This document shows, piece by piece, positions 10,217-59,124 of a stretch of 64,000 nt of DNA. The position numbers and the translations under genes were made by a program. The notes under the pieces are model-generated. The model searched no databases. It was not told the DNA's origin and worked only from the letters and a program-made list of their open reading frames with translations. The stretch comes from Posidoniimonas corsicana (lineage in GTDB: Bacteria > Planctomycetota > Planctomycetia > Pirellulales > Lacipirellulaceae). Location of the stretch: assembly GCF_007859765.1 (NCBI RefSeq), contig NZ_SIHJ01000002.1, positions 496,001 through 560,000 of the forward strand. Direction: 5' to 3'. The first letter of the stretch is position 1; each line of letters starts with the position of its first letter.

Positions 10217-10430
10217 GGTAGGCCTGAATCGAAACGGGGTAGGAACGGGAAGCACCAGATTGCCAGGATCGCCCTATTGTAGTCGAAACCCGGCGCTGTT
10301 TCAGGTGGGCTCTGGGGGAGAACCACGAAGGCACTAAGGCACGAAGACGGGGCCCGCTGGAGCTCAGGCTACAGCCTGCCGCCCTACCGTTCACTTTTAC
10401 GCGCACGCTGAAGCGTGGACTCCAGCCGCC

Positions 10431-11540: not shown

Positions 11541-11622
11541 GGCGGTTGGAAATTGGCGGTTGGAAGTTGGAACAGGCCGCGAGAACAGCCGGCCCACCCG
11601 CCAGGGGTGGGAACGCCCCTTC

Positions 11623-12612: not shown

Positions 12613-12788
12613 GCGGGCGGCGGGGGGGTGGGAGGCGGGCGCCCCCATTGTACCGGGCGCGCCAGGGGCAACCTAGCCGGCCGGTCTGCACATGCCCGTA
12701 CTAAGCGGGCCCATAGCAGATGGACCCATAGCACGCGGCAGCGCCGGCCGCACGACGGACCCGCGCCGCCGGCCCCGGGTTCGCCCCG

Positions 12789-44847: not shown

Positions 44848-45108
44848 CTACAAGCGTTTCGGCGCCCCGCCGTCACCCGCGCCGTCCCCCGGGATGACAC
44901 GCGGGCCGGGTTGGTTCCGCCTCTTCCAGGCCGCATACTTGAAGCCGAGTTGCACCGGAGTTGCGGCGCCTAGCTTATCCATCACTTTTCTCCGGTGAAG
45001 CTCGATGGTCCGTAGCGCGAGGCCCATCTTTGCCGCAGCGACTCGGCTTGAAGCTCCGCCGACTAGAATATCGAGCAGAGCGATCTCGCGTTTGCTGAAC
45101 TCGGGCAT
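44848..45108 (-). CDS. stand-alone LuxR-type HTH protein, copy 3
   Basis: An 86-residue GerE-type HTH: FSKREIALLDILVGGASSRV, then AAAKMGLALRTIELHRRKVMDKLGAATPVQLGFKYAAWKRR. Ends in PGPRVIPGDGAGDGGAPKRL, like copy 1. The ATG at 45108 sits in the same context as copy 1 (CATNGTACCTGCC on the plus strand). The gene can be read about 40 codons further upstream, but that part is the conserved leader and is not likely translated. Confidence 0.82.
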   Translation of the reverse strand: MPEFSKREIALLDILVGGASSRVAAAKMGLALRTIELHRRKVMDKLGAATPVQLGFKYAAWKRRNQPGPRVIPGDGAGDGGAPKRL

Positions 45109-45162
45109 AGTACCTGCCAGTGGGGGGCCGTGCCGGGATTCTTGCAGGATCGTTGGCACCCG
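45109..45162 (-). promoter_or_regulatory. conserved leader of mini-LuxR copy 3
   Basis: This stretch matches 29420-29474 in order and spacing (GTACCTGCC, ATTCTTGCAGG, CGTTGGCACC on the plus strand). See the entry for copy 1. Confidence 0.5.
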
Positions 45163-45316
45163 ACCCCTAATGAGCGTGCAGCATCCAATCGAACCGGGGC
45201 GGCGCGCCTGAGTTCCGGCGCATCGCGACATTAAGTCTGGTATGGCGGGTTATCGCCACTACAAGATGCGGTGGTCGTCTTGCATTGCGGAGTCGCGTGG
45301 CAACAATCGCGACCCC

Positions 45317-45622
45317 ATGAAATCCCCGTTCCACTCAACGCCCGTCGTCAGAACACCGCCGCTCCCCCTACCCGAGGGTGTGACGCGTTACCCCCACGCG
45401 AGCCCTGACTCCACGCTCGCCAACTGCTGGGCGGTCCGGCTGGAACTGCACAAGCCGAGCGGCGCCGGCTCCATCGGCTGGATCGTCTGGCGCGACCCCA
45501 CGCCCAAGGCCGAGCGGATTAAGCCGCTAGGGAAAGAGCGGATCACGGATCTACGGCCGGGGGATCGGGTGGAGGTTCGCGGGGCGGAGTTTGTGGTTCG
45601 GGGGGTGGAGCTTTGGCGGTAG
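45317..45622 (+). CDS. hypothetical small protein
   Basis: A 101-residue product starting MKSPFHSTPVVRTPPLPLPE. The end has a beta-rich pattern LRPGDRVEVRGAEFVVRGVELW, as in small SAF- or hedgehog-like fold domains. An ATG 25 codons upstream is also in frame. A broken match of its 3' end is found at 29556-29596, next to mini-LuxR copy 1. Function unknown. Confidence 0.5.
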   Translation: MKSPFHSTPVVRTPPLPLPEGVTRYPHASPDSTLANCWAVRLELHKPSGAGSIGWIVWRDPTPKAERIKPLGKERITDLRPGDRVEVRGAEFVVRGVELWR

Positions 45623-45673
45623 CATGACGCGCAGGCGTTTCACGCCTGAGCGTCGAAGAATTGGGCTAAGAGG

Positions 45674-45745
45674 CGCTGAGGTTGGGCACACCAACTACAG
45701 TTCGGCGAGTCGCTCAGAGCTGGCGGCTGGTCCAACTTCTGCAAC
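45674..45745 (+). repeat. dispersed hairpin repeat, copy c
   Basis: Starts CGCTGAGGTTGGGCACACC and ends TGGTCCAACTTCTGC. The right half of the hairpin is degraded (ACACCAACT instead of ACACCTCAG). Confidence 0.5.
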
Positions 45746-45931
45746 ATAGCAACCCATCAATATCGCGGCGGTGATTTCGCCCTCAGTAGCTTCGCCAGCA
45801 GTTTCCGTACAATACACACATACGTCCAGCATCTTCAGATACGGCATAGATAACACGGGCAAGCTGTTCGTTGAGCGGTACGGGAGAGAACACACGCTTC
45901 CCAAATACCTCAACTCGCGTTTGTCAGTCAT
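45695..45931 (-). CDS. doubtful small gene at the end of the bestrophin gene
   Basis: A 78-residue frame whose ATG overlaps the bestrophin stop as ATGA. It begins MTDKRELRYLGSVCSLPYRS and includes CVYCTETAGEATEGE. Its last 17 codons lie in dispersed repeat copy c, so the original end was probably replaced by the repeat. No motif is recognised. It may be a real gene truncated by repeat insertion. Confidence 0.3.
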   Translation of the reverse strand: MTDKRELRYLGSVCSLPYRSTNSLPVLSMPYLKMLDVCVYCTETAGEATEGEITAAILMGCYVAEVGPAASSERLAEL

Positions 45932-46902
45932 GGGGCCTTCGTCGGCTTGAGCTCTGACATGGCGAACAGGTTTCGTTCAATGTTCGCCGAGATGTCATCA
46001 AGCGGCAAATGGCTAAGATTGTCTTCTGAGAATGGATTCTCAAGTTCCACGCCAATCTGATCGAGCGTTAGCAGAGGATATGCGACTAGCATGGTGATGA
46101 CCGGAATTAACCACACCGTATCACTTATATGAAGAAGAGCGATTGGCAATATGAGGAGAAACAGCAGGATAAAACGTCTGATGGTAATGGAATATATCCG
46201 TGGCAGCGGCGTCGCCAAGATTCGTTCGCACGCCCCAATATGATCAATCAACAAAGCCCGCTCCCGGTCGATTTGCATGAAGGCGAACCCGTCCATCGCA
46301 AACCGTTCGGTAGCGTCCTGGAGTAACTCGGCGAGCCGTAATGCCACAAGACTCGGCATGTGATTCGCTTCCGCTAGTTCGTTTGCACGTTCAATGCCGA
46401 TTAGATTGCCGGTTTCAGCGGATGGCTGTTCACTTCGAAGGCTGAGGTGAGCGACGTACGGAAAAACCGCAGTCCACCGAACCACATTCTCTCTCCATTC
46501 CGAATCATGTGGTCCGTAAGCCATTGCACTGATAACAAGATTGCGTGATTGATTGACAATCCCCCCCCACTTTGTACGAGCTTCCCACCAACGGTCATAT
46601 CCTGCATTCAATCGAATGACGAGGAGAATCCCCAACACCGCTCCTGCGAATCCAAGTGGCCTGATGTCGAGAGTGAAGGAAGGGTCGAACATGTGTTGCG
46701 TGAACCACGCAACGGCGCAGACAATGCTACCAAGCAAGCCAAAGAACAGTATTGATGGCAAGACATGAACAGTAATTGACCCCTGAAGGGCAACTGCCTC
46801 TCGCCAGAATCCCTTACGGGTTTGGTAACTTCTCATCAGGTCCTGTCCTGAAGTCACCAGTTCAGACAATCTGATGCGGCTTTCACCGTACGCTGTTTGC
46901 AA
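45928..46902 (-). CDS. bestrophin-like membrane channel
   Basis: A 324-residue protein with hydrophobic segments near 48-68, 76-96, 235-255 and 260-278. The family blocks GFWREAVALQGSITVHVLPS, LVIRLNAGYDRWWEARTKWG and SRNLVISAMAYG are visible, as is the late DQIGVELENPFSEDNLSHLP. Bestrophins form anion (or in some bacteria cation) channels. The base composition is visibly poorer in GC than the neighbours, a sign of transfer. An alternative start is MRSYQTRKGFW, 22 codons in. Confidence 0.88.
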   Translation of the reverse strand: MQTAYGESRIRLSELVTSGQDLMRSYQTRKGFWREAVALQGSITVHVLPSILFFGLLGSIVCAVAWFTQHMFDPSFTLDIRPLGFAGAVLGILLVIRLNAGYDRWWEARTKWGGIVNQSRNLVISAMAYGPHDSEWRENVVRWTAVFPYVAHLSLRSEQPSAETGNLIGIERANELAEANHMPSLVALRLAELLQDATERFAMDGFAFMQIDRERALLIDHIGACERILATPLPRIYSITIRRFILLFLLILPIALLHISDTVWLIPVITMLVAYPLLTLDQIGVELENPFSEDNLSHLPLDDISANIERNLFAMSELKPTKAP

Positions 46903-47211
46903 CTGGATTGTGATGTTCGGTCAATTTCTTCCTTCCCGCCCCGGCGGTAAGGCCCGGTGACACCTGCCCGCCCGAAATAAGTACGTCGCTACCAGCATCG
47001 GCACGGAACTCCCAGCCGATGGTTCCCTCCGTGACCCGAACTAGCAGCCCGTTGATTTATGGGGTGACGCCGCGGCATGTCAGAATAAATCAAGCCCGTT
47101 TGCCGTCGGGCCCCTGCGATCGGCTCGACAAATCCTTGGTTTCCGCTCGTCTTGCGAGCCCCGTTTCAGTCGGCGGGACAGTTTTTCCTGACAGGGCCTC
47201 GCGAGTGACCA
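46903..47211. other. intergenic region upstream of the bestrophin gene
   Basis: About 310 bp. No gene or clear hairpin is recognised; the bestrophin promoter should be here. Confidence 0.35.
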
Positions 47212-47427
47212 TTAATCAACGGCGGCTAGGCTCCCCGACCTTGCTACTACGTCGGAACCTACCTCGCCGCCTGGACCGACAAAGAGGCTGTTACCGTCCA
47301 TTAACTCGACGCCATTCTCCACGACCATTAGTGGCGCGTTGGTAACGAGCTGGGCTTTAGTCGCGGCACCAAGGTACAAAACCAAAGTGCAAGCGAAAAG
47401 ACAATGCAGCGGCGGATACATACTCAT
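47212..47427 (-). CDS. possible truncated secreted protein
   Basis: A 71-residue frame starting MSMYPPLHCLFACTLVLYLG with a leader-like segment ending ATKAQ, then LVTNAPLMVVENGVELMDGN and GPGGEVGSDVV. It could be the first part of a secreted beta-helix protein cut short by a stop, but nothing follows it. Low confidence. Confidence 0.3.
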   Translation of the reverse strand: MSMYPPLHCLFACTLVLYLGAATKAQLVTNAPLMVVENGVELMDGNSLFVGPGGEVGSDVVARSGSLAAVD

Positions 47428-47549
47428 TCGGTGATTCGCTTGCGGCGAGAGCTAGTGGCACATCCGAATGTCCAGCTGGCGGCGGGGTTGAGCCAGGCGT
47501 TGAGACCGGACTATGGATCGTTTCAACCGTGATTACTACGACGTGGGCT

Positions 47550-47657
47550 CTACTTGCCCTTCTTTTCTCGTTGCTTCTGCCGTTTCTCCTTCGGAGTAAG
47601 CTGCGCCTTTTTTTGCTGCTCTCTTTTGCCTTTGTCCTTACTTCCTTTATCACCCAT
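47550..47657 (-). CDS. 35-aa highly charged protein
   Basis: A short frame starting MGDKGSKDKGKREQQKKAQ, then LTPKEKRQKQREKKGK. It is about half Lys/Arg plus Glu/Gln and would be a single charged helix. An AGGAG ribosome site lies 8 bp before the ATG. Small proteins of this exact style are common in many bacterial groups. It is the last gene of the 55.9-47.5 kb cluster, 32 bp after the GH130 gene. Role unknown; nucleic-acid or ribosome contact is inferred from charge. Confidence 0.75.
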   Translation of the reverse strand: MGDKGSKDKGKREQQKKAQLTPKEKRQKQREKKGK

Positions 47658-47689
47658 GACTGGTTCTCCTAGATTGAAGGCGGTAGTAA

Positions 47690-49141
47690 CTACTCTGGTT
47701 CTATTGCGGATAGCAATTCGTTGAGGGGGATCGTGCCGAAAGTTGTGGCGTAGTCGGACATCGCGTAAGGCAAGATTAGGTGGTCGTTGTGAACAACTGC
47801 TCCACAGCTATACACAACATTCGGAACATATCCTTCTCTTTCTTCCTCATTAGGCGTCAACAGCGGATGCTTCAGCCGTCCAATCAAGCGAGATGGATCA
47901 TCACGGTCTACTAGAAAGGCTCCTATGGAATACTTCCGCATGGGGCCGACACCATGAGTGAGGATCAGCCACCCGGCGTCCGTCTCGATGGGAGAACCGC
48001 AGTTTCCGACCTGCACAAAATCCCAAGGGTAAGTAGGCCTTATGAGAACCCGTTTTGAGTGCCAGAAATGCAGCATGTCTGAGTACATCAGAAAGAGGTT
48101 CTCCCCGTCTTGACGTGACAGCATCGCATAGCGCCCATTGATCTTCCTGGGGAACAGCGCCAAGCCCTTGTCGGCTATAGCCGGGCCATTGAGAGTGTGC
48201 ATCTTGAAGTCAAGAAAGTCATCGGTTTCCAACAACTGCGGAAGTACAAGACGTCCGTCATAAGCGCTGTAGGTGGCGTAGTACCGGATGCCGCCGTCTT
48301 CCTCTTGGAAGCGGACGAAACGCGCATCCTCCATCCCTGCTGTTTCTGTTGGGCTGTACGGGAAGATGAGGCGTTCGGATAGCTTTGTCTCCGGTAGGTA
48401 GGTGATCTCGTAGTTCGACCTGGCGAGCGTGACGATCCCGTCAAGAACCGTGTCAAATTCGTGGTGGCGCATGCGGTTCTCACGCACCGCTAGCTCCAAC
48501 GCCTCGTCAAGTTGTTCAAGCGAGAACTCTTTGTCGAGGCGGCCCACTACGCGGTTCGTGAACCCGCCCGCCAACCCGAGTTCGGCCAGCTTCCGAAGAA
48601 ACAGCGTCTTCTGATACCAGGTGTCGGTGACGACGTCGGCAGGCGTAGCGAAGCGTGTCGGCTTGTCAATCGAGATTGCACACTGCGAGTCAACGACCCC
48701 GGACCGAAACGTGATCGAGGAGAGGTGTCCTTCCCCAGTGGCGCGCAGGCTGAGCACAAAACGGCGTGTGCCCTTAGGCAGCCCCGACTGATCAGGGTGC
48801 CATACGATAGAGGGGTTGAACAGCGCCGCCGACTCGACAGCGTACTCCTGGGTGAAGTAGGCTCCGATCAGCAGCCGGCGATTCTCACTTAGCGGGGCGT
48901 CGGTGATCAGGTGCTCGCGCACGTCCTCGAATCTCGCCAGGAGGAAGTCCCTGGGGCGTTGATGCCGCCCGTGGAACTCCTCCAGCACGTTGGCTATCAG
49001 CTCGCCGACTTCGGCTTCCGGCAACGCCGAGAGGCGCGCGATAATTCGTAGGGTTCGCTCCTCGGGAAGAGGAATGAAGGGTCGGAGGACGACCCGCTTG
49101 CTGTTGGGAGAGAGGACGATCCCGGTTCTGTTAATCTGCAT
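47690..49141 (-). CDS. GH130-like phosphorylase/hydrolase with helical N-terminus
   Basis: A 483-residue protein. Residues about 20-110 are an extra helical region (PLPEERTLRIIARLSALPEA). The GH130 five-bladed propeller follows: ESAALFNPSIVWHPDQ, then TAGMEDARFVRFQEEDG, then LFPRKINGRYAMLSRQDGEN, then NCGSPIETDAGWLILTHGVG, and VPNVVYSCGAVVHN near the end. GH130 enzymes phosphorolyse or hydrolyse beta-mannosides. The Glu-Asp in 'MEDAR' matches the family catalytic Asp. The start MQINRTGIVLSPN lies 11 bp inside the upstream GT4 gene, so the two are coupled. Confidence 0.88.
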   Translation of the reverse strand: MQINRTGIVLSPNSKRVVLRPFIPLPEERTLRIIARLSALPEAEVGELIANVLEEFHGRHQRPRDFLLARFEDVREHLITDAPLSENRRLLIGAYFTQEYAVESAALFNPSIVWHPDQSGLPKGTRRFVLSLRATGEGHLSSITFRSGVVDSQCAISIDKPTRFATPADVVTDTWYQKTLFLRKLAELGLAGGFTNRVVGRLDKEFSLEQLDEALELAVRENRMRHHEFDTVLDGIVTLARSNYEITYLPETKLSERLIFPYSPTETAGMEDARFVRFQEEDGGIRYYATYSAYDGRLVLPQLLETDDFLDFKMHTLNGPAIADKGLALFPRKINGRYAMLSRQDGENLFLMYSDMLHFWHSKRVLIRPTYPWDFVQVGNCGSPIETDAGWLILTHGVGPMRKYSIGAFLVDRDDPSRLIGRLKHPLLTPNEEEREGYVPNVVYSCGAVVHNDHLILPYAMSDYATTFGTIPLNELLSAIEPE

Positions 49142-51458
49142 GTACGAGCCGCAAGGCTTCCTGGTCACGATTCTCATCCGTCGCCGTGGTGGCGTCCGGT
49201 GTGGCGACGATCGCCAGGGAACTCTCTAGCTGCTCCATTTCAACGAGCGACATCAGAAACGCCAGCGTCGATTCCGCCCCTTGGTTCTCGTTAACGCGGC
49301 CCTCCTGCAATCCGTCGTGACAACCCGCAGTCGCCGAATCGTAGAGCGGCTGCCCGAGATCGTTGCGACAGAGGAACCAGTCGAACGCCATCTGGGCTTG
49401 GTCTATCCAGAACGGGTCGCCTTCGGCGTTGTACGCCTCGATCGCGGCGGAGATCATCGCGTGGGCCTCAATCGGCTGCTGATCGTAGGCGGCGATGGGT
49501 TTCCCACGTCGATAGAAGCCGTTGCTGCCAATGGGCCGGAACCGCCCCTCCGGAGACACCTGCTTGGCGGCTAGCCAGCGAAGCGAGTCGAGGCCGATCT
49601 TGGTCGCCTTCGCGTTGCCGCTCCACTTCCCGCTGAGGATCAGCGCGTGGGAAAGCTTGGCGCTCGCGTAGGAGGCGATGCTCTCGAACCAGGGCCAGTC
49701 ATCGGTCGCGCTCCGCTCGTACAGTTCGATCAGTTTGTCGGTGAGGGTGTCACGCATCTGATCGACGAGGCGGTCGCCGCTGAGGCGCCGGAGGTACTCG
49801 TGGATGCCGATCAAGGCCAACGCCCAGGTTCTCGGCGACGTAGTTCTCGCCGGGGCCGGCAGGGCCCGCTGAAAGAGCTGAACCGACCAGGACTGGAAGC
49901 TCCTCCGGCGCGACCGCCCGGCGCAGACACCGAGCGCCCACACCGCACGTCCTTGTGAGTCGTCAGAGCCATTCTGCTCCAGCCACGTCCGATCGAAGGC
50001 CATAAAGTTCCGGAAGCGGCCGGTACCCTCGTCGAACGCGTGGTTTAGGAACGCGGCGTAACTGGAAGCGGCTTGGTGCAGCTCGATCGAATCACGCCCA
50101 AGGTCTTCCATGAGAACGGTAAAAATGAGCGCCCTGGCGTTGTCGTCGGTGCAGTACCCCTCCTGAAAGTTGGGCAACGAGAAGGTAGCGTGCTGGAAGA
50201 TGCCGGTCGAGTCGGTCATCCGCAGCACGTGGTCGAGTCGGATCTTGGGGTGTGCGAGCGGCTGTTCGTCGAGCGTCCTGATCGCCAGCGGCTTGGGCGT
50301 CACGGACTGGCTCTGCCGCGCGAGCCCGAACGAGTCAGAGTAGAGCCCGGCGACGTGGCTCCAGACCATCTCACGCCCCAGCAGGTACGCCTTCTTCCGC
50401 ATCGCGTGACGGCGTGGTTCGTCTTGCAGCAGGGCGATGGTCTCTGTAGCGATCGCGGCGGAGTCACCGAATGGCGTCAACACGCCCCGCCCGTCTGCCA
50501 ACAATTCCTCGGCGTGCCAGTACGGGGTTGAGATCACCGCCTGACCGCACCCAAACGAGTAGGCGAGCGTTCCCGAGACGGCTTGCGCCGCGTTCAGGTA
50601 CGGTGTGATGTAGAGGTCGGTCGCTCCGATGAAATTGGTAAGCTCTTCGAGTTCGACAAAGCGGTTGTAGAAAACGACGCGCTTCTGTATGCCCAACTCC
50701 TTGGCCAGTCTTTCAAGGCCGATCCGATAGGTCTCCCCCTCGCTGCGGAGCAGACTGGGGTGGGTCGCTCCGAGCACAAGGTAGACGAAGCTTGGGACTT
50801 CTCGGACGATTTCAGGCAACGCCTTGAGGACCACCTCGATCCCTTTGTTGGGCGAAAGGAGCCCGAAAGTTAGTCCTACGTGCTTGCCCGCCAGGTCGAA
50901 TTGATCCTTGTAGAAGTTCGGATCGGAGAAGGGCCGGTCGGGGATGCCGTGGACGATCAGGTCGATCTTCTCATCCGGAACTTGGTACTGCTCAAGGAGC
51001 GTCGCCCGGCTCCGCCGGGTCATGACGACGACCCGCGTCGATAGCTCGAGCAACTGCTCCATTACCCGGCGCAAGGTCTTGTCGGGATCGGGGAGCACCG
51101 TGTGCAGCGTCGTTACCACTGGCACCCGCAGGTCGCGAAGAAAGCTCAAGATGTGGGCGCCCCGAGGGCCGCCATAGATCCCGAACTCGTGCTGGAGTGA
51201 GACGACGTCAACGTTGCTGAAATTGAGGAAGTCCGCTGCCCGGCGGTAGGACTCCCGGTCCTGTTCTCTGATCTGGAACCGGACGTTGAGTGGGTAGTCG
51301 TAACCCTCCTCGATATCGTCAACTGGCACGACGAGGCATTCGGTGTTCGCGAGGCCGGCGACGGCGGAGCTAAGGTCGTGCGTGAAGGTTGCGATGCCGC
51401 ATTTTCGCGGCGGGTAATCGCCAACAAAGGCGACTCGCAGAGTGTCGGAAATCGTCAT
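49131..51458 (-). CDS. GT4 glycosyltransferase fused to a helical domain
   Basis: A 775-residue protein. Residues 1-375 form a GT-B, GT4-type transferase: FVGDYPPRKCGIATFTHDLS, then LQHEFGIYGG, GLLSPNKGIEVVLKALPEIV, and the donor-site block TDLYITPYLNAAQAVSGTLAYSFGCG. From about 410 a second, helix-rich domain reads EGYCTDDNARALIFTV, FMAFDRTWLEQNGSDDSQGR and AYDQQPIEAHAMISAA, an (alpha/alpha) toroid pattern as in glycoside hydrolases. It would transfer a sugar from a nucleotide donor. It sits between two GH130 genes, so the product may be a mannoside. Confidence 0.88.
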   Translation of the reverse strand: MTISDTLRVAFVGDYPPRKCGIATFTHDLSSAVAGLANTECLVVPVDDIEEGYDYPLNVRFQIREQDRESYRRAADFLNFSNVDVVSLQHEFGIYGGPRGAHILSFLRDLRVPVVTTLHTVLPDPDKTLRRVMEQLLELSTRVVVMTRRSRATLLEQYQVPDEKIDLIVHGIPDRPFSDPNFYKDQFDLAGKHVGLTFGLLSPNKGIEVVLKALPEIVREVPSFVYLVLGATHPSLLRSEGETYRIGLERLAKELGIQKRVVFYNRFVELEELTNFIGATDLYITPYLNAAQAVSGTLAYSFGCGQAVISTPYWHAEELLADGRGVLTPFGDSAAIATETIALLQDEPRRHAMRKKAYLLGREMVWSHVAGLYSDSFGLARQSQSVTPKPLAIRTLDEQPLAHPKIRLDHVLRMTDSTGIFQHATFSLPNFQEGYCTDDNARALIFTVLMEDLGRDSIELHQAASSYAAFLNHAFDEGTGRFRNFMAFDRTWLEQNGSDDSQGRAVWALGVCAGRSRRRSFQSWSVQLFQRALPAPARTTSPRTWALALIGIHEYLRRLSGDRLVDQMRDTLTDKLIELYERSATDDWPWFESIASYASAKLSHALILSGKWSGNAKATKIGLDSLRWLAAKQVSPEGRFRPIGSNGFYRRGKPIAAYDQQPIEAHAMISAAIEAYNAEGDPFWIDQAQMAFDWFLCRNDLGQPLYDSATAGCHDGLQEGRVNENQGAESTLAFLMSLVEMEQLESSLAIVATPDATTATDENRDQEALRLVHAD

Positions 51459-51491
51459 TGGGAATCTTCGAGAGGTTGTTACTGACGGGCG

Positions 51492-52535
51492 TTACTGCAG
51501 CGAGTCAAGCACGGAGTCACGGGACAGGTTGACAACGCCAATCGCTTCGTCTGCCGCGCCGTAGTAAACCGCCAGAGTCGGACCGGCATCGATCAACGCG
51601 GTGGGAAAGACGACGTTCGGCACGAAGCCAGAACACTCAAAGTCGGCGAGAGGCCGAAGGAGGGGCTCAAGGCTCCGACGCAGGACACGCGTCGGGTCGT
51701 CACGGTCAAGCAGAACGGCGGCTCCGCAGTAGGCCCCAATCTGTCCAATTTCACCCGAGGACCCGCAGCCGTGGTAGAGCACCAGCCAGCCGTCGTCCGT
51801 TTCGATCGGCGGCGCCCCGGCGCCGATGCGTTGGTTATCCCAACCGCCGATGCCGCTGAGCAGCGGCTCGTGAGCGCCCCAGTTCAACAGGTCGGGCGAG
51901 GGTGCGAGCCAGATCTCGGGACGGCAGAAGTCGGTCCTCGCCGTCGGCCGATGGAGTGCGACGTACTCGTCGCCAATCTTGCGCGGGAAGAGAACGACAT
52001 CCTTATTCTCGGGCGGGAAGATGACGCCGTGGCGCGCAAAGTCAATGAAGTCTCGGGTCGAGGCGAGGGCGGTCACTGCTCCGTGCCGCGAAACGGCGAC
52101 GTAGGTGACCCAGTGAGCACTGTCGATGGTGGTGATGCGCGGGTCTTCGACGCCGTACTCTTCGGTAGGCGACTCCGGCAACAGAACCAAATCCGCACTC
52201 CACGTGCCTGGGCCGTCCTCGTTGCGGTGGAATACACGAAGATGAGAGATCGACGTCAGGCGGGACTGGCCATTGTTCAGCGCTCGGACGACGCGCGGGT
52301 CGCTCAGGTCGAACTCCGACTCGGGCTCCCAGTCGACGGTCACCTTGCCGCCTTGCTCTATCCGCGGCATTCCAATGCGTCCTGGATGGCCCGGCTTGGG
52401 CCTCTCCGCGACCCTCGCGAGCAGCATGATTCGGTCGCCGGTGCGTACGACGCCTGGGTTGAAGACGCCGATCACCTCGAATCCGTGAGTCAGAGGGGCA
52501 ACTTCGTCGGCGCTTGTCATGGGTTGGGCTGACAC
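51492..52535 (-). CDS. GH130 beta-mannoside phosphorylase-like protein
   Basis: A 347-residue GH130 propeller: FEVIGVFNPGVVRTGDRIML, then EEYGVEDPRITTIDSAHWVT, then VVLFPRKIGDEYVALHRPTA, then GAGAPPIETDDGWLVLYHGC and FVPNVVFPTALID. The catalytic Asp is in GVEDPR. It is shorter and closer to classical mannoside phosphorylases than the copy at 47690. The family turns phosphate and a beta-mannoside into mannose-1-phosphate. The start may be five codons further in (MTSADEV). It overlaps the zinc-ribbon gene and lies 33 bp before the GT4 gene. Confidence 0.9.
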   Translation of the reverse strand: MSAQPMTSADEVAPLTHGFEVIGVFNPGVVRTGDRIMLLARVAERPKPGHPGRIGMPRIEQGGKVTVDWEPESEFDLSDPRVVRALNNGQSRLTSISHLRVFHRNEDGPGTWSADLVLLPESPTEEYGVEDPRITTIDSAHWVTYVAVSRHGAVTALASTRDFIDFARHGVIFPPENKDVVLFPRKIGDEYVALHRPTARTDFCRPEIWLAPSPDLLNWGAHEPLLSGIGGWDNQRIGAGAPPIETDDGWLVLYHGCGSSGEIGQIGAYCGAAVLLDRDDPTRVLRRSLEPLLRPLADFECSGFVPNVVFPTALIDAGPTLAVYYGAADEAIGVVNLSRDSVLDSLQ

Positions 52536-52750
52536 GAGTGGTTGAAGCGATTTCGCTTAGCCACCCGCTCCTCCTCAGATGGGGGTTGGGCGAGGGCTTC
52601 AACGCGACGCAGCGCCCTGCGTTGCTCGTCCGCTGCGTCGCGATTGCACTGAGGATGAACCCCGCCAGCGGAGTAAGAAACGTGGCCACAGACAGGACAC
52701 TTCCTCTGTGGCTGAGCCTTGATCAAGGGTTCTGGCTTCTTGTGACTCAC
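52517..52750 (-). CDS. small zinc-ribbon protein
   Basis: A 77-residue product with CPVCGHVSYSAGGVHPQC, two Cys pairs for one zinc. The tail is helical and charged (EQRRALRRVEALAQPPSEEE). The GTG start VSHKKPEPLIKAQ lies behind AAAGGACG; a longer frame exists but upstream residues look unlike protein. Its last codons overlap the GH130 start. Function unknown. Confidence 0.6.
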   Translation of the reverse strand: MSHKKPEPLIKAQPQRKCPVCGHVSYSAGGVHPQCNRDAADEQRRALRRVEALAQPPSEEERVAKRNRFNHSCQPNP

Positions 52751-52820
52751 AGCATACGTCCTTTGATTGACAAGAGTTGTAGCCCGGGCACTGAGAGTCT
52801 CGAGCCTGCAAGATCGTCTT

Positions 52821-54593
52821 CTAGTCTCTCCGTAAGGCAGTATCGAAAGGTCGGTCGGCAAAGTCGGCCTCTGCGAAGTCGCGCGACCGCCATTCGTCAA
52901 TCAACTCTCGAACTTCGGCGACGCTGTCGCAGTCGATCGCGCGGCTTGCGACACGGCTTGCGACACCAGAGTCGATCTTGCGGATCGCTGACCGCACGGC
53001 TGGCGCAAGCGTGGGGCCAAGACTTAGCTCTCGAATGCCCAGGCCAACAAGCAGGCATGCGAAGTCGGGATCTCCGGCCTCTTCACCGCAAACGCATAAG
53101 GGGCATTGCAGCCTTGCCGCGGCGCCGACGACCGATTTGATCGCTCGCAACACCGAGGGGTGCATGGCGGTGCAGTCGTCCTTTGCCTGCGCGAGGTCTC
53201 GGTCGGTTGCCAGGAGCAGCTGCGTGAGGTCGTTCGTCCCGAGGGCGACAAAGTCCGCTTGGTCGAGGATCTGATCCAGACAGAATAGCGCGGCCGGGGT
53301 TTCAATCATCGCGCCAATGGGCGGGGTGCGGAGCACGCCACAGCGATCGGCAACACGCTGGATGACGGAAACCGCCTTCCCGAAGTCATCGCTGCCGACC
53401 ACCATCGGCAGCAAGATGCGAAGATCGTGGTCCTGTGAGACCTCCAAGATGGCCTGCAGCTGGGATTCAAACAGCGAGCTCTCTGCTAGTAGGAAACGCA
53501 ATCCGCCGAGATGCAACCCGTTCGGCTGCTCGGCCTCGTCCGACAGCAAGAAGGGGGGGATTTTGTCTCGTCCGAGGTCGAAAGTCCGGACGACAAGGGG
53601 ACGTCCAGCGAGTTGATTCGCTATGTCAGCATAGATGGCGCCTTGCGTCGCCGGGTCAGGCCGATCGGGCGCATCGATGAACATGAACTCGGTGCGGAAG
53701 AGCCCAACCCCTTCGAGGCCCTGCTCGACGACCGAGGCGGTTTCGTCCGGTCGACCTAGGTTCGCGACGAGTTCGATTCCAACGCCGTCCAGGGTCGTGC
53801 ACGGTTGGCCGCACTCGATCATCTTGGTGGACGAATCGACTGCAACACGCGTCATCCGCTCATTAAACACTCCTCTCTCATTCGCTGTAGGGTTAACCAC
53901 AACCAGGCCTGTCTCGCCATCGACCAGCAGGCGATCCCCAGGATGGATTACCCGGGCGGCGTCGGTGATGCCGCTGACCATTGGGATATTCAGCGAGCGG
54001 GCGAGGATTGCGGTGTGGCCGTACCGTCCACCGCGGTCGGCGACGATCGCCAAGACCCCACAGTTAGAAAGTTCGACAGCCTCCGAAGGCAGCAGCTCCC
54101 GCGCCACGACGATCGAATCGGCCTTCAACGGCCCTTTGCTCCAAGGCATCGAGCCCGAAAGATACCTCGCCATTCGTCTGCCAACGTCGCGGACGTCTTG
54201 CTCTCGCTCCCGAAGGTACTCGCTGTCGAGCCTCGTCAGCCTCTCGACCCACGCTGCTATCACCGATTCGAGCGCCCGATCGGCATTCACCTGCTGGTGG
54301 TCGATGTGCTTCTTCACGAGAAATGCGATCTCGGCTGTCATCGCCGCATGGGCAGACAAGAGCGACAGCGAAGTCGCGCTGACGGGCGCGTTGCCCGCAA
54401 GTTCGGCGACGCGTCCCAGATCGTGGCTCGATTGTGCGAGCGCACTGTCGACCCTCTCCCACTCTTCGGTAACATCACAACCTGATTCCCCGGCGTGCTG
54501 GACGCATAGCCTGCGTCCCACCTCAAAGTCGTAGACAATCGCTGTACCACTGGCGAGCCCAGGGCTGACAGGAGTCCCTTCCAAAATCGGCAT
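52821..54593 (-). CDS. ptsI: phosphoenolpyruvate-protein phosphotransferase (PTS enzyme I)
   Basis: A 590-residue enzyme I. The phospho-His is H193 in DRGGRYGHTAILARSLNIPM; the family form is GGxTSH, here YGH. The TIM-barrel blocks are GLEGVGLFRTEFMFID, PLVVRTFDLGRDK, GAMIETPAALFCLDQIL, DFVALGTNDLTQLLLATDRD and VCGEEAGDP with the catalytic Cys. It passes phosphate from PEP to HPr. No HPr or EII gene is in the window, so it may serve a regulatory PTS or a non-sugar acceptor. It is 44 bp after the CsbD-like gene. Confidence 0.92.
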   Translation of the reverse strand: MPILEGTPVSPGLASGTAIVYDFEVGRRLCVQHAGESGCDVTEEWERVDSALAQSSHDLGRVAELAGNAPVSATSLSLLSAHAAMTAEIAFLVKKHIDHQQVNADRALESVIAAWVERLTRLDSEYLREREQDVRDVGRRMARYLSGSMPWSKGPLKADSIVVARELLPSEAVELSNCGVLAIVADRGGRYGHTAILARSLNIPMVSGITDAARVIHPGDRLLVDGETGLVVVNPTANERGVFNERMTRVAVDSSTKMIECGQPCTTLDGVGIELVANLGRPDETASVVEQGLEGVGLFRTEFMFIDAPDRPDPATQGAIYADIANQLAGRPLVVRTFDLGRDKIPPFLLSDEAEQPNGLHLGGLRFLLAESSLFESQLQAILEVSQDHDLRILLPMVVGSDDFGKAVSVIQRVADRCGVLRTPPIGAMIETPAALFCLDQILDQADFVALGTNDLTQLLLATDRDLAQAKDDCTAMHPSVLRAIKSVVGAAARLQCPLCVCGEEAGDPDFACLLVGLGIRELSLGPTLAPAVRSAIRKIDSGVASRVASRAIDCDSVAEVRELIDEWRSRDFAEADFADRPFDTALRRD

Positions 54594-54637
54594 ATGAAAT
54601 CCAGCTAGGTTAGGGAGGCGTTCGTCGCCGAGATTTC

Positions 54638-54874
54638 TCAGCAGGGCGTCGTCAGGGCGGCTGCTGGCGAGGTAAGCGCGAGATTCTCCGCGAACGCATC
54701 AACGCGGGCGGTTGCTCGTTCCCGGTCAACGCCATAGCGCTGCACGTACAAGTCAACGAAGCGATCGCGATCGCCAGCGATGAAGACCAGGTCGTCCTCA
54801 CTGAGCTTGCCCCAAGTGAGCAGCACCTGATTGCAAACGAATTTCCAATCCCGCTCGATGACTTCCCAGCTCAT
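54638..54874 (-). CDS. CsbD-like stress protein
   Basis: A 78-residue, acidic helical protein: WEVIERDWKFVCNQVLLTWG, then KLSEDDLVFIAGDRDRFVDL, then YVQRYGVDRERATARVDAFA. The 'W..v...W...kg.lw...gkLtddDL..i.G.rd' pattern is that of CsbD/YjbJ proteins, induced by general stress in other bacteria. The start follows CAGAGG. It lies between the frameshifted gene and ptsI on the same strand. Confidence 0.75.
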   Translation of the reverse strand: MSWEVIERDWKFVCNQVLLTWGKLSEDDLVFIAGDRDRFVDLYVQRYGVDRERATARVDAFAENLALTSPAAALTTPC

Positions 54875-54923
54875 TGGAACCTCTGCTAATTGATGGGTGG
54901 AAAAGCCTAAGCCGGCGAACCCG

Positions 54924-55342
54924 CTAGCCGCCTGCGGTTGTTGACTCTGCGTCGTGCAGCTTCCGCAGTTCGACGTCGTACCCGACAGTCTCGTTGTCGA
55001 GTGTCAACCGATAGAGCGCGATGGTTCGACCGTTTGCATCGCACTTTTTTGCGACTCGTTCCTCGGCGAGCGCCGCGTCGAGGTTTCTTCTGTATGACTC
55101 GGTGCGTCGACAACGAACAGCCGAATGCCGGGGTGGTCGATTACCCGGGTCAGGTAACCGCGAACCAACGGATAGGGCCGCAACGGCTCGGCGACGCGGT
55201 CACAGCAAGCTTCGCAGACGGTCCGTGAGGTGAAGCCGTAGGCAGCGCTGTACGCGTGCTCTGCGTCCTCACGGCAACGAGGTCCGAAGGGGCGTCGCAG
55301 CACGGGGCGTGGAGTCGATGGGCTCGTGTCATTCGCCTTCAT
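54924..55342 (-). pseudogene. frameshifted gene of unknown function
   Basis: The first frame starts MKANDTSPSTPRPVLRRPFG and has CEACCDRVAEPLRPYP and IRLFVVDAPS. After about 55100 the protein-like reading moves to the -1 frame: RRNLDAALAEERVAKKCDAN, then TIALYRLTLDNETVGYDVEL, then RKLHDAES and a stop at 54924. The switch near VVDAPS has no slippery run, so a one-base loss or a sequence error is likely. The ATG at 55342 overlaps the csrA stop as ATGA. No family is recognised. Confidence 0.55.
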
Positions 55343-55587
55343 GCTGCGCCGGTCCTTCTGCCGTTCGGACCTCGGGCCCGTCTGCCCGCTCGCGCTTCTT
55401 GGGCATCGCCTGCTTGCCTGCAAGCGCCTGTTGGATCGAACGTCGTTAGCTCGCCGCGTAAGATCGGGATGTCGGAGGGGGCGTCGATTCCCAGGCGTAC
55501 GACGCGACCCTTTACGCCAAGCACCCTCACTAGGATGTTGTCTCCGATCCGCAAGAACTCATCCGTTCTTCTGCTAAGTACTAACAT
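55339..55587 (-). CDS. csrA: carbon storage regulator CsrA
   Basis: An 82-residue CsrA. The N-terminal MLVLSRRTDEFLRIGDNILV and the block RVVRLGIDAPSDIPILRGEL hold the residues that bind GGA motifs (Leu4, Arg6 and the late R-x-E). It binds mRNAs and blocks or stabilises them. The last 30 residues (GDAQEARAGRRARGPNGRR) are a basic extension absent from most CsrA. It lies between the TPR gene and the frameshifted gene, coupled to the latter. Its own ribosome site holds two GGA motifs. Confidence 0.92.
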   Translation of the reverse strand: MLVLSRRTDEFLRIGDNILVRVLGVKGRVVRLGIDAPSDIPILRGELTTFDPTGACRQAGDAQEARAGRRARGPNGRRTGAA

Positions 55588-55599
55588 GCTTCCGTCCTT
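55588..55599 (-). promoter_or_regulatory. csrA ribosome site with two GGA motifs
   Basis: On the minus strand AAAGGACGGAAGC precedes the ATG. Two GGA motifs overlap the Shine-Dalgarno region, the usual target of CsrA. Autoregulation is plausible. No hairpin context could be proven. Confidence 0.4.
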
Positions 55600-55607
55600 T
55601 TAGTTAT

Positions 55608-55955
55608 TTATCGATTGCCGCCTGGACGATCGGTGAGTGTCGGGTTTCTTTTCATTCTCACAAGCTTCCGCCGCGCCTCGGTCTTGATGGTGGCCGAAAC
55701 GCCAGACAGGAGCAGCAACTGTTCGAGATCGACCGCCGCGGCCGGTTTGTCGCCGCTTGCGCTAAGAGCGAGCGCGCGATTGTAAAGCGCCATCGCCTGC
55801 AATCCTGCTTCGATGTCCGGCGTGGCAAGAACCGTCGTGTAGGCGTCGATTGCCTTCGCGTACTGACGCACGTTCGCCAACACCATGCCGCGACGAAAAG
55901 CCAGCACCCCGCGCTTGCGCACGGTGAAGAGCTCCTTAAACCAGTTCCCGCTCAT
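55608..55955 (-). CDS. TPR-like helical protein
   Basis: A 115-residue protein made of helix pairs: RGVLAFRRGMVLANVRQYAK, then AIDAYTTVLATPDIEAGLQA, then MALYNRALALSASGDKPAAA. The spacing (A-x-Y-N-R-A-L-A-L) is that of tetratricopeptide repeats, about two and a half. TPR proteins act as scaffolds. First gene of the 55.9-47.5 kb cluster, 20 bp before csrA. Confidence 0.7.
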   Translation of the reverse strand: MSGNWFKELFTVRKRGVLAFRRGMVLANVRQYAKAIDAYTTVLATPDIEAGLQAMALYNRALALSASGDKPAAAVDLEQLLLLSGVSATIKTEARRKLVRMKRNPTLTDRPGGNR

Positions 55956-56250
55956 TCGTACCGACCCCGTCGATCGCTCAAGCCGCAGGCTCCGTCACAA
56001 GCCGTGCGCTAGGAAAAACAGACAGCAGGCCCTGCAGTCGACGGACCGACATGCCGGGAGCGCAAGCAACCCGAAAGCTACAGCGACCCGATGTCGCTCC
56101 GACAACGATCGGCTCGGCCGTCTTGAAAACGAACTCGGAGCTGAGCCGAGCGAGCAAGTTAAGAGCCGACTCCAGTCCTTCAACCGTGACAAGATACGAA
56201 TGTGCCCCGTCGCGGCTTCGTCTGTCAGCGGATGGCTCGGCGTTCGTTTG
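55956..56250. other. intergenic region upstream of the csrA cluster
   Basis: About 295 bp; should hold the promoter of the TPR-csrA cluster. No clear element is recognised. Confidence 0.35.
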
Positions 56251-56781
56251 CTATTCCTTAATCGTCTGCCGATTCTTCGATGAACGAGGCTGCGGCGCCG
56301 CTTCCATCTGCTTGCACAGCTCCGATACCGAAGCAAACGGCATCCCCTCAGCAAGCTCGTACCGCTCAGCACGGACAAACCAGAAAGCCAACCCGCCCGT
56401 GTTGTGGGCCGGCTCGCCCTTTGTGCGCTGCGCGCGAACTCCTAGCGACCCTTTCCTGCCCGCCTTCTTCCAGCCACGCCGCTCCATAACGATCCGTATG
56501 ACGACTCCAATCGCCTGCCGCAGGCGTTGCGTTCGACAGGCATGGACACCCGAGAGGACCGCTTCGACTTTGGGGTGCGACTCCAGTTCTCGTACGACGC
56601 CCGCGAGGGGCGCGCGGTCGTGGTGGATCTCGGCGTCTTCCATCCGCCACTGCCATTCCGCGTCGCAGAAGCACTCCAGCACGGTATCAAAGCGCTGTTC
56701 GGGATCGTCGACGACATCCAAGAACGCTTTCCCCTGGCGATCATCCACGAAGTCCCGGCTTGTGATCTTCGCTTTCGGCAT
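56251..56781 (-). CDS. conserved protein, intact paralogue of 58021
   Basis: A 176-residue product starting MPKAKITSRDFVDDRQGKAF, then DVVDDPEQRFDTVLECFCDA, then WQWRMEDAEIHHDR. Further on: GVVRELESHPKVEAVL, then a basic region (RIVMERRGWKKAGRKGS) and a C-terminal FWFVRAERYELAEG. No family is recognised. Its first 75 residues match the frame at 58021-58230, so the two are paralogues. The start was chosen because this paralogy begins at MPKAK. Confidence 0.6.
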   Translation of the reverse strand: MPKAKITSRDFVDDRQGKAFLDVVDDPEQRFDTVLECFCDAEWQWRMEDAEIHHDRAPLAGVVRELESHPKVEAVLSGVHACRTQRLRQAIGVVIRIVMERRGWKKAGRKGSLGVRAQRTKGEPAHNTGGLAFWFVRAERYELAEGMPFASVSELCKQMEAAPQPRSSKNRQTIKE

Positions 56782-58020
56782 CCAGTTGGCTTCGCGGACG
56801 GTGGGCGACACCCTGGACGTACAAATATTGTATCTGCAAAAACCGTTGGCGGCTAGCCCTCCTTTCTGCTCAAGGGAGAGGTACGCCGCGTCCCCGCAGC
56901 CGTGGCACCGAGTGCTTGCCCGGCTGACTCAGTCGGCTATTCGGACGACGGATGCGTCTGTTGCAGTACCGATCCGCTTCACCGCCATGAAGTGATGAAT
57001 CGTTCTTGGACGAAGGCGTCAGCTACTTTTGTCGGCTGGGCTCTTGCGCGCACTCCTTGCTTCGAGCACGAGGTTGCATCGACTTCGCTGAGATCGCGTC
57101 TCAGAGAACTCGCGTCGGTTGTCACTACCTCGTGCAGATTCAGGACGGCCCCCCGAACCTGCTCCGGATTCATCGTCCTGTGCACGTTAGGGCTAGATTC
57201 TCGCGGCGGCGTTGGGGAGCGCCAGGCGGGAGGCGTTGGCTGCGCAGGACTTTCACGCCCACGCACGCTGCATAATTCTGTCAGCAAGGTGGAACAATCT
57301 TGCTATTTCCTTGAGACTTCCTGCCAATAAGGAATCCGCCAACCATCTAGAACTTCCTGGCGACATGATTCACGCACTATTTCGTGGCGACCCCGAACTG
57401 GTAACAGCGCGGCTACCTTTGGAGAATCGCAACTCGCAATCTCGCGATACTTCGAAGGTGACCTTCGCACTTGCTGCGTGTAAGTTACATGATGAGCACG
57501 CGTCGGCTTCGTCGTCAGAAGCAACTTCCACGGGCCGGGCGCCATGCCTACACGCGACAGCGGCTAGGCATGTTTGACGGAGATGCAACAACAAGGATGC
57601 TCACCCGTTACCGCGTGTGAGCATGGCGTCCGACCGTGCCTTGCAATACGCAGGTACTTCACGCCGGTGCACTATTGGGGCGGGCTCTAACTCGCACAGG
57701 TGATACACACCGACAGCAGTTATGCCGAAGGCTTAAGTGCTGACGATAGCTCAACCTCGTCCTCAAGTTTGCTCGATTACCTTCGCCTTGAGACGTGACA
57801 AAAGGGTAGTTCCGCTTCGATCGCTCGCGGTGCGCCGAAGACCGCGATCCATGTGTCAGGGTTTCGGGCGGTGGCCGCATGGCCTGACGACCAATCGGGA
57901 TGTGCTGCCGGCCGATCGCGTTGGACCGGCTTTGCTGTGGATTGCCCTAACTATGCCGGCTATCGGAGACACGATATCTGTATCTGCTTTGGCTCGTCGG
58001 GGCGCATTCGTGGCTCTGGG
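56782..58020. other. 1.2-kb region without recognised genes
   Basis: Several open frames up to about 140 codons exist on both strands but none has a ribosome site, sensible composition or motif. The stretch is somewhat AT-richer than the chromosome in parts and may be decayed DNA. Confidence 0.4.
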
Positions 58021-58230
58021 ATGCGAAAAGTTGTGCTTTCTCGGAAAGACTTCGCCGAGGATCGGCAAGGCAGGACTTTCTCGGATGTTCTGAACGACCC
58101 GGCTCAGCCGCCCGATTAGATCCTGGCGTTCTTCAGCGATGGCGACCGGCAGCGACGGATGGAGGAATCGGCGAGCATCGACGAGTTAATGGCCACAATG
58201 GAGTCGGTTCGAGATCTCGACGCGCCATAG
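58021..58230 (+). pseudogene. TAG-interrupted paralogue of the 56251 gene
   Basis: ATG at 58021 begins MRKVVLSRKDFAEDRQGRTF, then SDVLNDPAQPPD, a TAG at 58117-58119, then in the same frame ILAFFSDGDRQRRMEESA and a stop at 58228-58230. The whole line follows the gene at 56251 (SRKDF/SRDF, DRQG, DxVxDP, RME). The TAG is a nonsense mutation, or much less likely a recoded codon. Confidence 0.7.
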
Positions 58231-58326
58231 TCTGGGCTTGTGCGCGAGTACTACGACGCTCGCCACTCGGTCTCTGTACTCTCAAGCAGGCCGGAGTCCA
58301 AACCTGCTGCTTGCGTGCTTCTTCCC

Positions 58327-59124
58327 TCAGGTGGGGGGGCCCGGCAATCGCTGGACATCGACCGACATTCGCTTTAGTTCAAGCGGTTCCCCGAACTGGG
58401 TGTAGATCGCAACGTCCGCCGCATCGCGCCCATAGGCTATCGCGACGCGGCAACCCTCCAAGTCATGCTGCGTAGGATCGAACGTGAACCAACGGCCTCC
58501 GACATAAGCCTCGAACCAGGCGTGCAAGTCCATCGGCCGAAGCGTTTCCAAGTAGCCCACGACCATTCTGGCAGGTATGGACAAAGCGCGGCACAACGCT
58601 ATACCGAGGTGCGCCATATCGCGACACACAGCCTGGGTTCGTGTGTTTGCCTCTGCAGCGCTGATGATCTCTTGGCCCGATCCCGGCGCGTACTGAAGAC
58701 TCTGCTGGATGTATTCCACGATGGCTATGCATTGCCCGTAGCCGGGCGCGCAGTTGGCTGTGATCAAAGACGCCATCTCGGTGAATGTGTCTGACTCGCA
58801 ATACCGGCTCGGGTAGAGGAAAGGCAACGCGTCGATCGGAAGGTGGTTCACTGGAACAAACCGCGCGTAGGGTTCCGCATCGGCGAAGTCTGCGGCATTG
58901 ATGTCCGCGGAGGTGCGGATTGTGAACGGCCCAGTTGGAGACACGAGTTTCTGGCACAGGTTCCCGAACGTGTCTGTAAACTCAACGGCCGGCACGCTCG
59001 GCGTCAGGACATACTGCTCGCGAGCAATCCATTGCTGCCCGCCGCTCCGCGGCCTCAACATGAGCAGAAATGGCGTTGCAACGGGCGCGTCAAACTCTAG
59101 CGAACAGGAAGTCTGCAGCCACAT
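58327..59124 (-). CDS. transglutaminase-like protein, copy 1
   Basis: A 265-residue protein. The N-terminal half is a beta-sandwich ([20 protein letters not shown]). The transglutaminase core has the catalytic Cys in [17 protein letters not shown], the His in [16 protein letters not shown] and the Asp in [12 protein letters not shown]. These proteins are papain-fold proteases or amidases, cytoplasmic in this form. An ATG 12 codons upstream is possible. A second copy, about 85% alike by eye over the visible part, starts the right edge of the window. Confidence 0.9.

Follow-up and report, generated by a model that had tools for sequence, protein, structure and literature searches.

Gene content and extent of the putative operon

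The genes described here lie within 64,000 nucleotides of Posidoniimonas corsicana DNA, referred to below as the window. All features are on the minus strand unless noted otherwise. Ten units are packed between positions 47550 and 55955, separated, from the gene for a TPR protein to that for a charged 35-aa protein, by 20, -3, 49, 44, 70, -19, 33, -47, and 32 bp. An earlier note had described ten tightly packed minus-strand units with overlaps, and the gaps (-47 to 70 bp) agree with this description. Its start of the unit at 55955 was set too short: two further genes in the same direction, here called LG and UP2, precede the TPR gene and are also found at the start of related clusters, so that about a dozen co-directional genes are involved. 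The earlier note had regarded neighbors conserved together nowhere else as evidence against its reading; recurrence of the neighborhood in other genomes was checked and found. A generic promoter scan of the region gave no sites (2.6 in shuffled sequences), and a terminator scan gave 10 (9.6 by chance). Judged from gene order and conservation, the run looks like one conserved modular operon of Planctomycetota, the genes of which would share a transcript.

The first gene of the unit, LG (56251-56781), encodes 176 aa from an ATG at 56781; a longer product starting from a GTG at 56811 is possible. It shares 54-64% identity with 12 further members in an alignment, one of them the genome's own second copy, and combines an acidic N-terminal half with a strongly basic C-terminal half. 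The family gave no matches in NCBIfam and PHROG and no significant ones in Pfam and the PDB, and no DNA-binding domain was recognized in LG with these four collections. The single match from a PDB profile search (E 0.017 over 28 residues) was taken as chance, as were three Pfam families, each hit by one of the 13 LG members scanned (best E 0.0054). The 6.77-Mb genome holds two intact LG copies. A broken fragment with internal stops (58021-58269, plus strand) lies behind a degenerate palindrome (57963-57989, 18/25). LG occurs in 37 of 246 genomes of the order and is rare in the phylum sample (7/392, one of these weak). Seven stretches of viral contigs fitted a pattern, and an LG relative was encoded in none of them. 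No literature on a cluster of this type was found, the literature not being searchable by LG sequence. Between LG and the TPR gene lies UP2 (55978-56190), a short open frame that is conserved; its start codon is not clear.

The family names proposed in the earlier note held for the TPR protein, CsrA, enzyme I, the GT4 protein, and both GH130 proteins; CsbD is a weak match, and the zinc ribbon is a motif only. The TPR protein (55608-55955, 115 aa) matches TPR_2 with 32.2 bits (cut-off 27, 8.6e-8), and homologues also sit behind LG at other loci. CsrA (55339-55587, 82 aa) scores 69 bits against PF02599 (cut-off 27) and falls under the NCBIfam equivalog cut-offs. The frameshifted gene FS (54924-55341) belongs to a conserved family that reads as a single open frame elsewhere, for example at loci L039 and L054 (the latter compared by eye), and in other genomes frames matching its 5' frame precede the same clusters, which bears out its earlier description as frameshifted. 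The CsbD-like protein (54638-54874, 78 aa) reaches 37.7 bits against NF007748 (cut-off 113, 1.5e-9). ZNR (52517-52750, 77 aa) is a putative zinc ribbon with a CPVC...C pattern and without a significant Pfam or NCBIfam family. The 35-aa charged protein (47550-47657) is encoded by the last unit of the cluster; at L043 (same organism as L133), GH130B is followed after about 35 bp by a homologue with 94% identity.

EI-2 (52821-54593) is a divergent PTS enzyme I (TIGR01417, 364.2 bits, cut-off 341.7) with its catalytic motifs present: HTAI and CGEEA occur in at least 95% of nine EI-2 sequences, and the places of the phospho-His and the C-terminal Cys agree with those in the genome's other enzyme I. 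The latter belongs to a separate EIIA-HPr-EI set (C5:291045-293942) and is 31% identical to EI-2. The cluster had been called self-contained, which is wrong for enzyme I, the cluster copy being a second paralogue; the accompanying remark that HPr is missing here was correct, as none lies beside EI-2. EI-2 resembles the nitrogen-type PTS in family score and active-site motifs but differs from it in having no adjoining HPr.

The palindrome upstream of LG

An imperfect palindrome of 27 bp (56813-56839, consensus TTGCAGnTACAATATTTGTAnCTGCAA) is located 31 bp upstream of the LG ATG and is a putative operator; it contains a -10-like TACAAT hexamer. At up to three mismatches, the genome has two such sites, one before each intact LG, and the control gave none. 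The 246 genomes of the order gave 22 distinct sites (25 strand hits; 8 with a backward-pattern control), 20 of which are upstream of an LG gene at a distance of no more than about 260 bp. At this threshold a site is present in 18 of the 37 genomes with LG and in one of the 209 without; the 19 LG-positive genomes without a site count against the explanation favored below. With scoring in place of mismatch counting, 34 of 36 LG upstream regions reached at least 17 of 25 (3 of 1800 shuffles), the consensus having been derived from part of the same regions. From this set L039, L041, and L044 were omitted as duplicates of L141, L137, and L138, and L126, L127, and L129, all from one genus, were retained. 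These last three loci, with EI-2 only, have degenerate outer palindrome arms, and L178 has no palindrome scoring at least 17. In genome G443 the palindrome is kept at the cassette and the adjacent LG is reduced to a remnant; an intact LG elsewhere in that genome carries the identical 25-bp site in less similar flanks (16/26).

A TTG precedes TACAAT at a 16-bp spacer in 14 of 34 sites; the site in the window has no TTG hexamer at this spacing. A sigma-54 promoter before LG was rejected (best-match score 10.60, shuffles 10.61). Transcription would probably start at a promoter just upstream of LG that is overlapped by the 25-27-bp palindrome, and LG most likely acts at this palindrome, regulating its own operon.

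A reading that we hold to be somewhat less probable, although deserving of weight, is that a different regulator binds the palindrome, or that the palindrome acts as an RNA hairpin, with LG merely the first target gene. LG is without a known DNA-binding fold, and the TACA...TGTA arms resemble the sites of other repressors, for example of the BlaI/CopY type. The co-occurrence of sites with LG across genomes speaks for LG itself; as nearly all of the sites adjoin LG, this is weak evidence that LG binds them. The hairpin is disfavored by the dyad arms, the most variable pair of which shows 14 Watson-Crick and 5 G-T combinations in 34 sites; such little covariation argues against a conserved RNA stem.

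The GH130-GT4-GH130 cassette

Downstream of EI-2 and ZNR lie GH130A (51492-52535), a GT4-fold protein with a fused (α/α)6-barrel domain (49131-51458; PF00534, 54.8 bits, cut-off 26.4), and GH130B (47690-49177). GH130A resembles β-1,2-mannobiose phosphorylases (PF04041, 176.0 bits, cut-off 26). Its NCBIfam score of 321.7 bits is below the equivalog cut-off of 550, and its closest PDB chains over nearly the whole length are Lin0857 (5b0p) and Uhgb_MS (9eqq), a likeness of the protein alone. Several of the nearest solved GH130 relatives are named as acting on β-1,2-mannosides. GH130B (105.7 bits, cut-off 26) is a propeller with additional helices, both N-terminal and inserted; no GT108 chain was among the 50 structure rows listed for it, an absence that proves nothing.

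GH130 phosphorylases have three basic phosphate-site residues, and a Lys marks β-1,2 specificity, according to PMC4599007. In 44 GH130A sequences (48 minus four GH130B genes, which held the three Gln found at position 236), the catalytic D131 and the specificity Lys (K178) are invariant. The columns that we take to be the phosphate site contain R196 (44/44), R236 (39, with Lys in 5), and H255 (44/44) in GH130A. E283, D284, K337, R355, and H408 of GH130B are each conserved in 62/62 sequences, and the presumed phosphate-site position 389 is occupied by Gln in 56 (Lys in 5, Leu in 1). GH130B keeps family membership and fold, has in most sequences two of the three basic residues of a phosphorylase, and on account of the Gln may not be one. 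Both genes had been named as β-mannoside phosphorylases in the earlier note; all of the residues support this for GH130A, and Q389 speaks against it for GH130B. The broader claim of a cluster of mannoside enzymes fits both the conserved linkage and the GH130 residues, which favor β-1,2-mannoside chemistry for the pair.

GT4 enzymes dependent on NDP-sugars are marked by an EX7E motif and a diphosphate-binding Arg. In 76 sequences the EX7E positions, placed by eye in alignments, hold Q292 (76/76) and Y300 (75/76), the Arg position holds L200 (76/76), and K205 and H119 are invariant (76/76 each); the donor site is noncanonical in both respects. As the row for BshA (2jjm) also has no Gly-Arg there, the Arg alone is not decisive.

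A GH130 gene lies within 3 kb of the GT4 gene at 77 of 80 loci; these are the best 80 of 415 relatives, and the sample therefore leans to near kin. One of the three exceptions, L087, stops at a contig edge. GH130A is absent within 3 kb of GT4 at 30 of the same best 80 loci, and tblastn with the GH130A of the window found none at L132 and L138. LG heads GH130/GT4 clusters in ten organisms (the window, L141, L137, L042, L138, L132, L135, L136, L139, and L178, the last, from G155, ranked only as "same phylum"), with loci of one organism merged and absence defined as no tblastn match at E 0.01 to the single window protein. LG lies within 10 kb of GT4 in 9 of the 15 genomes of the order that have both. 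ZNR is present in nine of the ten linked clusters and csrA was found in three. Some EI-2 or flotillin-like clusters without a detected GH130 cassette likewise begin with LG. The loci in these counts are not independent by descent. By such comparisons of gene neighborhoods, GH130-GT4-GH130 is a widespread cassette, and CsrA, the CsbD-like protein, and enzyme I are optional passengers of the operon.

Interpretation of the putative operon

We regard the region, with a probability of about one half, as a stress-type operon with exchangeable cargo and palindrome control, probably by LG, that here carries an intracellular β-1,2-mannoside cassette. This reading draws on the observed gene order, conservation, palindrome specificity, and active-site residues and on predicted folds. 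LG would most likely bind at 56813-56839 for autoregulation; next would come a varying group of small genes with stress or regulatory roles (UP2, TPR, CsrA, FS, CsbD-like, ZNR, and sometimes EI-2), followed by the cargo. GH130A, GT4, and GH130B would most likely interconvert β-1,2-linked mannosides and α-mannose-1-phosphate inside the cell. The operon may have a stress or reserve role, storage being a possible role of the cassette.

It is rather unlikely, in our estimation, that the genes are stress genes accreted through promoter sharing without a common pathway, with EI-2 serving a nitrogen-type PTS with a distant HPr and the mannoside enzymes working alone. EI-2 was found in 12 of 246 genomes (calls separated by a gap between at least 49% and at most 36% identity among the matches listed); LG is present in ten of these and, among the matches listed, lies within 10 kb of EI-2 in nine of the ten. 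Accretion would accommodate the six of the 12 genomes with EI-2 but no adjacent cassette (one, G601, has a 37% GT4 match about 17 kb away), the seven close relatives that carry the cassette GT4 without EI-2, and the differing cargo among loci; it leaves unexplained the persistent association of the cassette with the same LG, palindrome, and ZNR. On control, it overlaps the exchangeable-cargo reading.

Salvage of imported β-1,2-mannosides, by uptake and phosphorolysis to mannose-1-phosphate and then GDP-mannose, is less likely still. It has a model in the Thermoanaerobacter cluster Teth514_1785-1796, read as GDP-mannose salvage in its publication (PMC4264767), which combines two GH130 phosphorylases, a GT4, a guanylyltransferase, an ABC transporter, and a GH5. 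Like that cluster, the window has two GH130 β-1,2-mannoside enzymes near a GT4 gene, and transporter-like genes adjoin the cassette at L068, L077, L081, and L106 (a solute-binding protein by Pfam at L068 only). In contrast, no ABC transporter or mannose-1-phosphate guanylyltransferase was found among 20 open reading frames scanned (44848-63179), nor a GH5 in the window cluster, and the planctomycete clusters have small stress-type genes instead. Only here are the GT4 fused to an (α/α)6 barrel, the GH130B provided with extra helices, and LG, the palindrome, CsrA, CsbD-like, and EI-2 present. One of the 20 scanned frames encodes a bestrophin.

Least likely of all is a self-contained mannogen-like glycan reserve that GT4 and GH130 would synthesize and recycle under the cluster CsrA: the GH130 residues are compatible with β-1,2-mannan and six ANGGA motifs occur in five of 11 start regions (TPR, csrA, FS, ZNR, and GH130B; about 1.4 expected), but the GT4 is without NDP-sugar hallmarks, Shine-Dalgarno sequences also hold GGA and coincide with several of the motifs, so that CsrA sites are not separable from them, and the control by CsrA proposed in the earlier note is not supported, given the presence of csrA in so few linked organisms and nine CsrA matches genome-wide, the cluster's included. 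The precedent is Leishmania, in which, according to PMC8950772, a β-1,2-mannan reserve (mannogen) is turned over by GH130-fold GT108 enzymes. The likeness lies in GH130-type propeller enzymes for β-1,2-mannan, a putative substrate in the window; GT108 is a separate family, and the window adds a GT4 and a bacterial operon.

More speculatively, and with considerable doubt, LG may represent a new regulator family on a 25-bp palindrome, one promoter being carried between stress cargoes (mannoside cassette, flotillin, EI-2) in Planctomycetota, and the GT4-fold partner may be a nucleotide-independent phosphorylase. If so, the cassette would pass sugar between α and β linkages via mannose-1-phosphate alone. 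To our knowledge, planctomycete gene control has been little mapped; a conserved, uncharacterized LG with a palindrome that occurs only twice in the genome is a testable candidate regulator-operator pair. Only partial published precedent was found for the widespread cassette, and a GT4 without the usual nucleotide-sugar residues raises the biochemical question of its donor.

The C-terminal domain of the GT4 protein was modeled as an (α/α)6 barrel (pLDDT 90.1) that aligns with 7tem (Z 38.1, 334 residues, 2.6 Å) and with RmCE (9l8i; Z 31.6, 333 residues, 3.0 Å). AGE 2-epimerases use a catalytic His pair; the domain has only two invariant His columns, H26 and H39, both near its start. AGE epimerase chemistry, with the fold as its support, was not adopted. 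The (α/α)6 barrel is common to AGE 2-epimerase, GH76, and other families.

Extent of the cluster and its head gene

The cluster is most strongly read as a modular operon headed by the gene LG (a name coined here) together with an upstream palindrome, and carrying a mannoside cassette (GH130A, GT4 fusion, GH130B) as cargo. The ten tightly packed minus-strand units of the earlier note were found with the positions and gaps described for them in this genome of 6.77 Mb and 13 contigs, in which the window spans G000:C2:496001-560000, and the assigned families were upheld overall, the CsbD match being weak and the 77-aa zinc ribbon (ZNR) being assigned by motif alone. The limits of the cluster had to be redrawn: the unit begins further upstream on the same strand with LG (56251-56811, minus strand; 176-186 aa; 55-63% identical to cluster-head genes in 13 loci), followed by the short frame UP2, both of which were recognised by ORF comparison among related clusters. 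In L039 and L054, relatives of the frameshifted gene (FS) form a single open frame ahead of a cluster of this type; FS is therefore regarded as a real gene, broken either here or by assembly.

LG gave no match in NCBIfam and PHROG searches and no significant match in Pfam and PDB searches. Many residues are invariant across 13 aligned members, and the two halves differ in charge, the N-terminal one being acidic (computed pI 4.9) and the C-terminal one very basic (11.2). The gene is carried by 37 of the 246 order-sample genomes and by 7 of the 392 in the phylum sample (one of the seven weak).

Just past the window, LG, UP2 and TPR occur together a second time on the opposite strand (L146:6240-7542, G000:C2:562239-563541), again with a palindrome (L146:6318-6342). 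At 57963-58269 (plus strand), a degenerate palindrome and the broken LG fragment behind it make up a third, decayed head. Two transglutaminase-like genes (58327-59160 and L146:3663-4472; 73% identical), which flank KaiC-like and histidine-kinase genes (59521-63179), are signs of local duplication.

The palindrome upstream of LG

The sequence common to LG upstream regions is TTGCAGnTACAATATTTGTAnCTGCAA, located in the window at 56813-56839. Scores of at least 17/25 were obtained for 34 of 36 such regions versus 3 of 1800 shuffled ones, the consensus having been built from 22 of the same 36 regions and the shuffles keeping base composition only. With up to three mismatches allowed, each of the two intact LG copies in the host genome is preceded by a site, at distances of 32 and 41 bp; no further site occurs, and the backward-pattern control gave none in the whole genome. 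Across the 246 genomes, 22 distinct sites (25 strand hits; control: 8 strand hits) were spread over 19 genomes, and 20 of the sites are followed by LG within about 260 bp. A site occurs in 18/37 LG-bearing versus 1/209 other genomes; the remaining 19 LG-bearing genomes have none at three mismatches or fewer, none was found in L178, and the outer arms are weak in several loci of EI-2, the divergent second PTS enzyme I.

In genome G443 the cassette is separate from the intact LG and is preceded by the palindrome, a cut-down LG remnant and ZNR, in that order. The 25 bases of this palindrome match exactly the site in front of the intact LG, which lies on another contig, and the flanks preceding the two sites agree at only 16/26 bases; the palindrome has thus been kept even beside a dead LG. 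An RNA stem is disfavoured as an explanation of the dyad, since the most variable pair of its arms covaries poorly. In 14 of 34 sites (not in the window's own copy), TACAAT is preceded by TTG with a spacer of 16 bp, a pattern that would fit a sigma-70-like promoter under a putative operator. In L179 (7214-7255) and L180 (6880-6921), LG is preceded by a pair of palindromes that lie 15 bp apart and overlap; they look like a doubled putative operator.

Conservation and enzymes of the cassette

In the genome collection, 415 relatives of the GT4 protein were found; the nearest named one among the matches listed is from Botrimarina hoheduenensis (88% identical), a planctomycete of the order Pirellulales. 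In the best 80 of the 415, assigned by record title to Planctomycetota, Verrucomicrobia, Bacteroidetes, Ignavibacteria, Synechococcus and others, 77 loci have a GH130 gene within 3 kb of GT4; 69 loci have type B at this distance, 50 have type A and 42 have both. Three loci of Synechococcus type (L094, at 8514-14417, L095 and L098) show the co-directional order GH130B, GT4, Gfo/Idh/MocA-type gene, GH130A, the last three overlapping by 4 bp; the family was assigned by Pfam for L094 and by membership of the same similarity cluster for the others. That oxidoreductase cluster was encountered in 12 of the best 80 loci, where its distance from GT4 ranges from -10.3 to +8.5 kb. The C-terminal half of the GT4 protein was found in 36/392 phylum-sample and 68/246 order-sample genomes, in the latter partly as shorter, more distant frames. 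Order-sample frames only 35-39% identical to this half, many of about 350-480 aa, are possibly free-standing paralogues.

Among solved structures, GH130A most resembles Lin0857 and Uhgb_MS. Its Lys178 and basic residues are conserved in 44/44 sequences; which columns make up the phosphate site is partly our assumption. Lys178 was aligned with the lysine tied to beta-1,2 specificity in PMC4599007. The GH130B model (pLDDT 90.3; nearest Teth514_1788) shows the GH130 propeller plus extra helices; Arg355, His408 and Lys337 are kept in 62/62 sequences, and one basic position is Gln in 56/62. The GT4 domain could be aligned with proteins that we take to be MshA, PimA and BshA. Its EX7E glutamate positions are occupied by Gln (76/76) and Tyr (75/76), and the diphosphate-Arg position by Leu (76/76); the loss of Arg alone says little, because the BshA row likewise lacks that Gly-Arg. 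The protein may be a nucleotide-free enzyme, since the GT4 family includes phosphorylases, so far all trehalose phosphorylases according to PMC8950772. For the predicted (alpha/alpha)6 barrel of its C-terminal half, the nearest structure was 7tem (uncharacterised protein, Z 38.1), followed by AGE-type epimerases (Z about 31).

The sequence is compatible with a storage as well as a salvage role for the cluster. Its nearest published counterpart, a Thermoanaerobacter cluster, is interpreted as salvage (PMC4264767), and a beta-1,2-mannan reserve is known in Leishmania (PMC8950772).

Optional passengers and alternative cargo

Passengers were scored by tblastn (E 0.01) in ten organisms with linked LG and GT4: ZNR was present in nine, UP2 in eight, FS in six, TPR in four, and CsrA, CsbD and EI-2 in three each. 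Control of the cluster by CsrA, as proposed earlier, was not supported, the only evidence in its favour being motifs indistinguishable from ribosome-binding sequence.

EI-2 is 31% identical to the enzyme I of the genome's EIIA-HPr-EI set, which sits on another contig than the cluster; its phospho-His, PEP-binding and Cys motifs, whose functional roles are presumed, are intact. EI-2 forms a distinct group, found in 12/246 genomes at 49% identity or more, the other matches listed reaching at most 36%. GT4 is close beside EI-2 in six of the twelve. In the remaining six, LG lies nearby and there is no adjacent cassette; most of them also have TPR, some have a flotillin-like gene, and one, G601, has no more than a distant GT4 match about 17 kb off. 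The flotillin-like set behind LG is alternative cargo. The flotillin-like gene scored 379 bits with the FloA model, under the cut-off of 393. It follows LG within about 3 kb in L126-L129, L147, L152, L155, L158 and L179-L181, and some of the LG-flotillin-like loci add a 118-aa gene, EI-2 and bestrophin.
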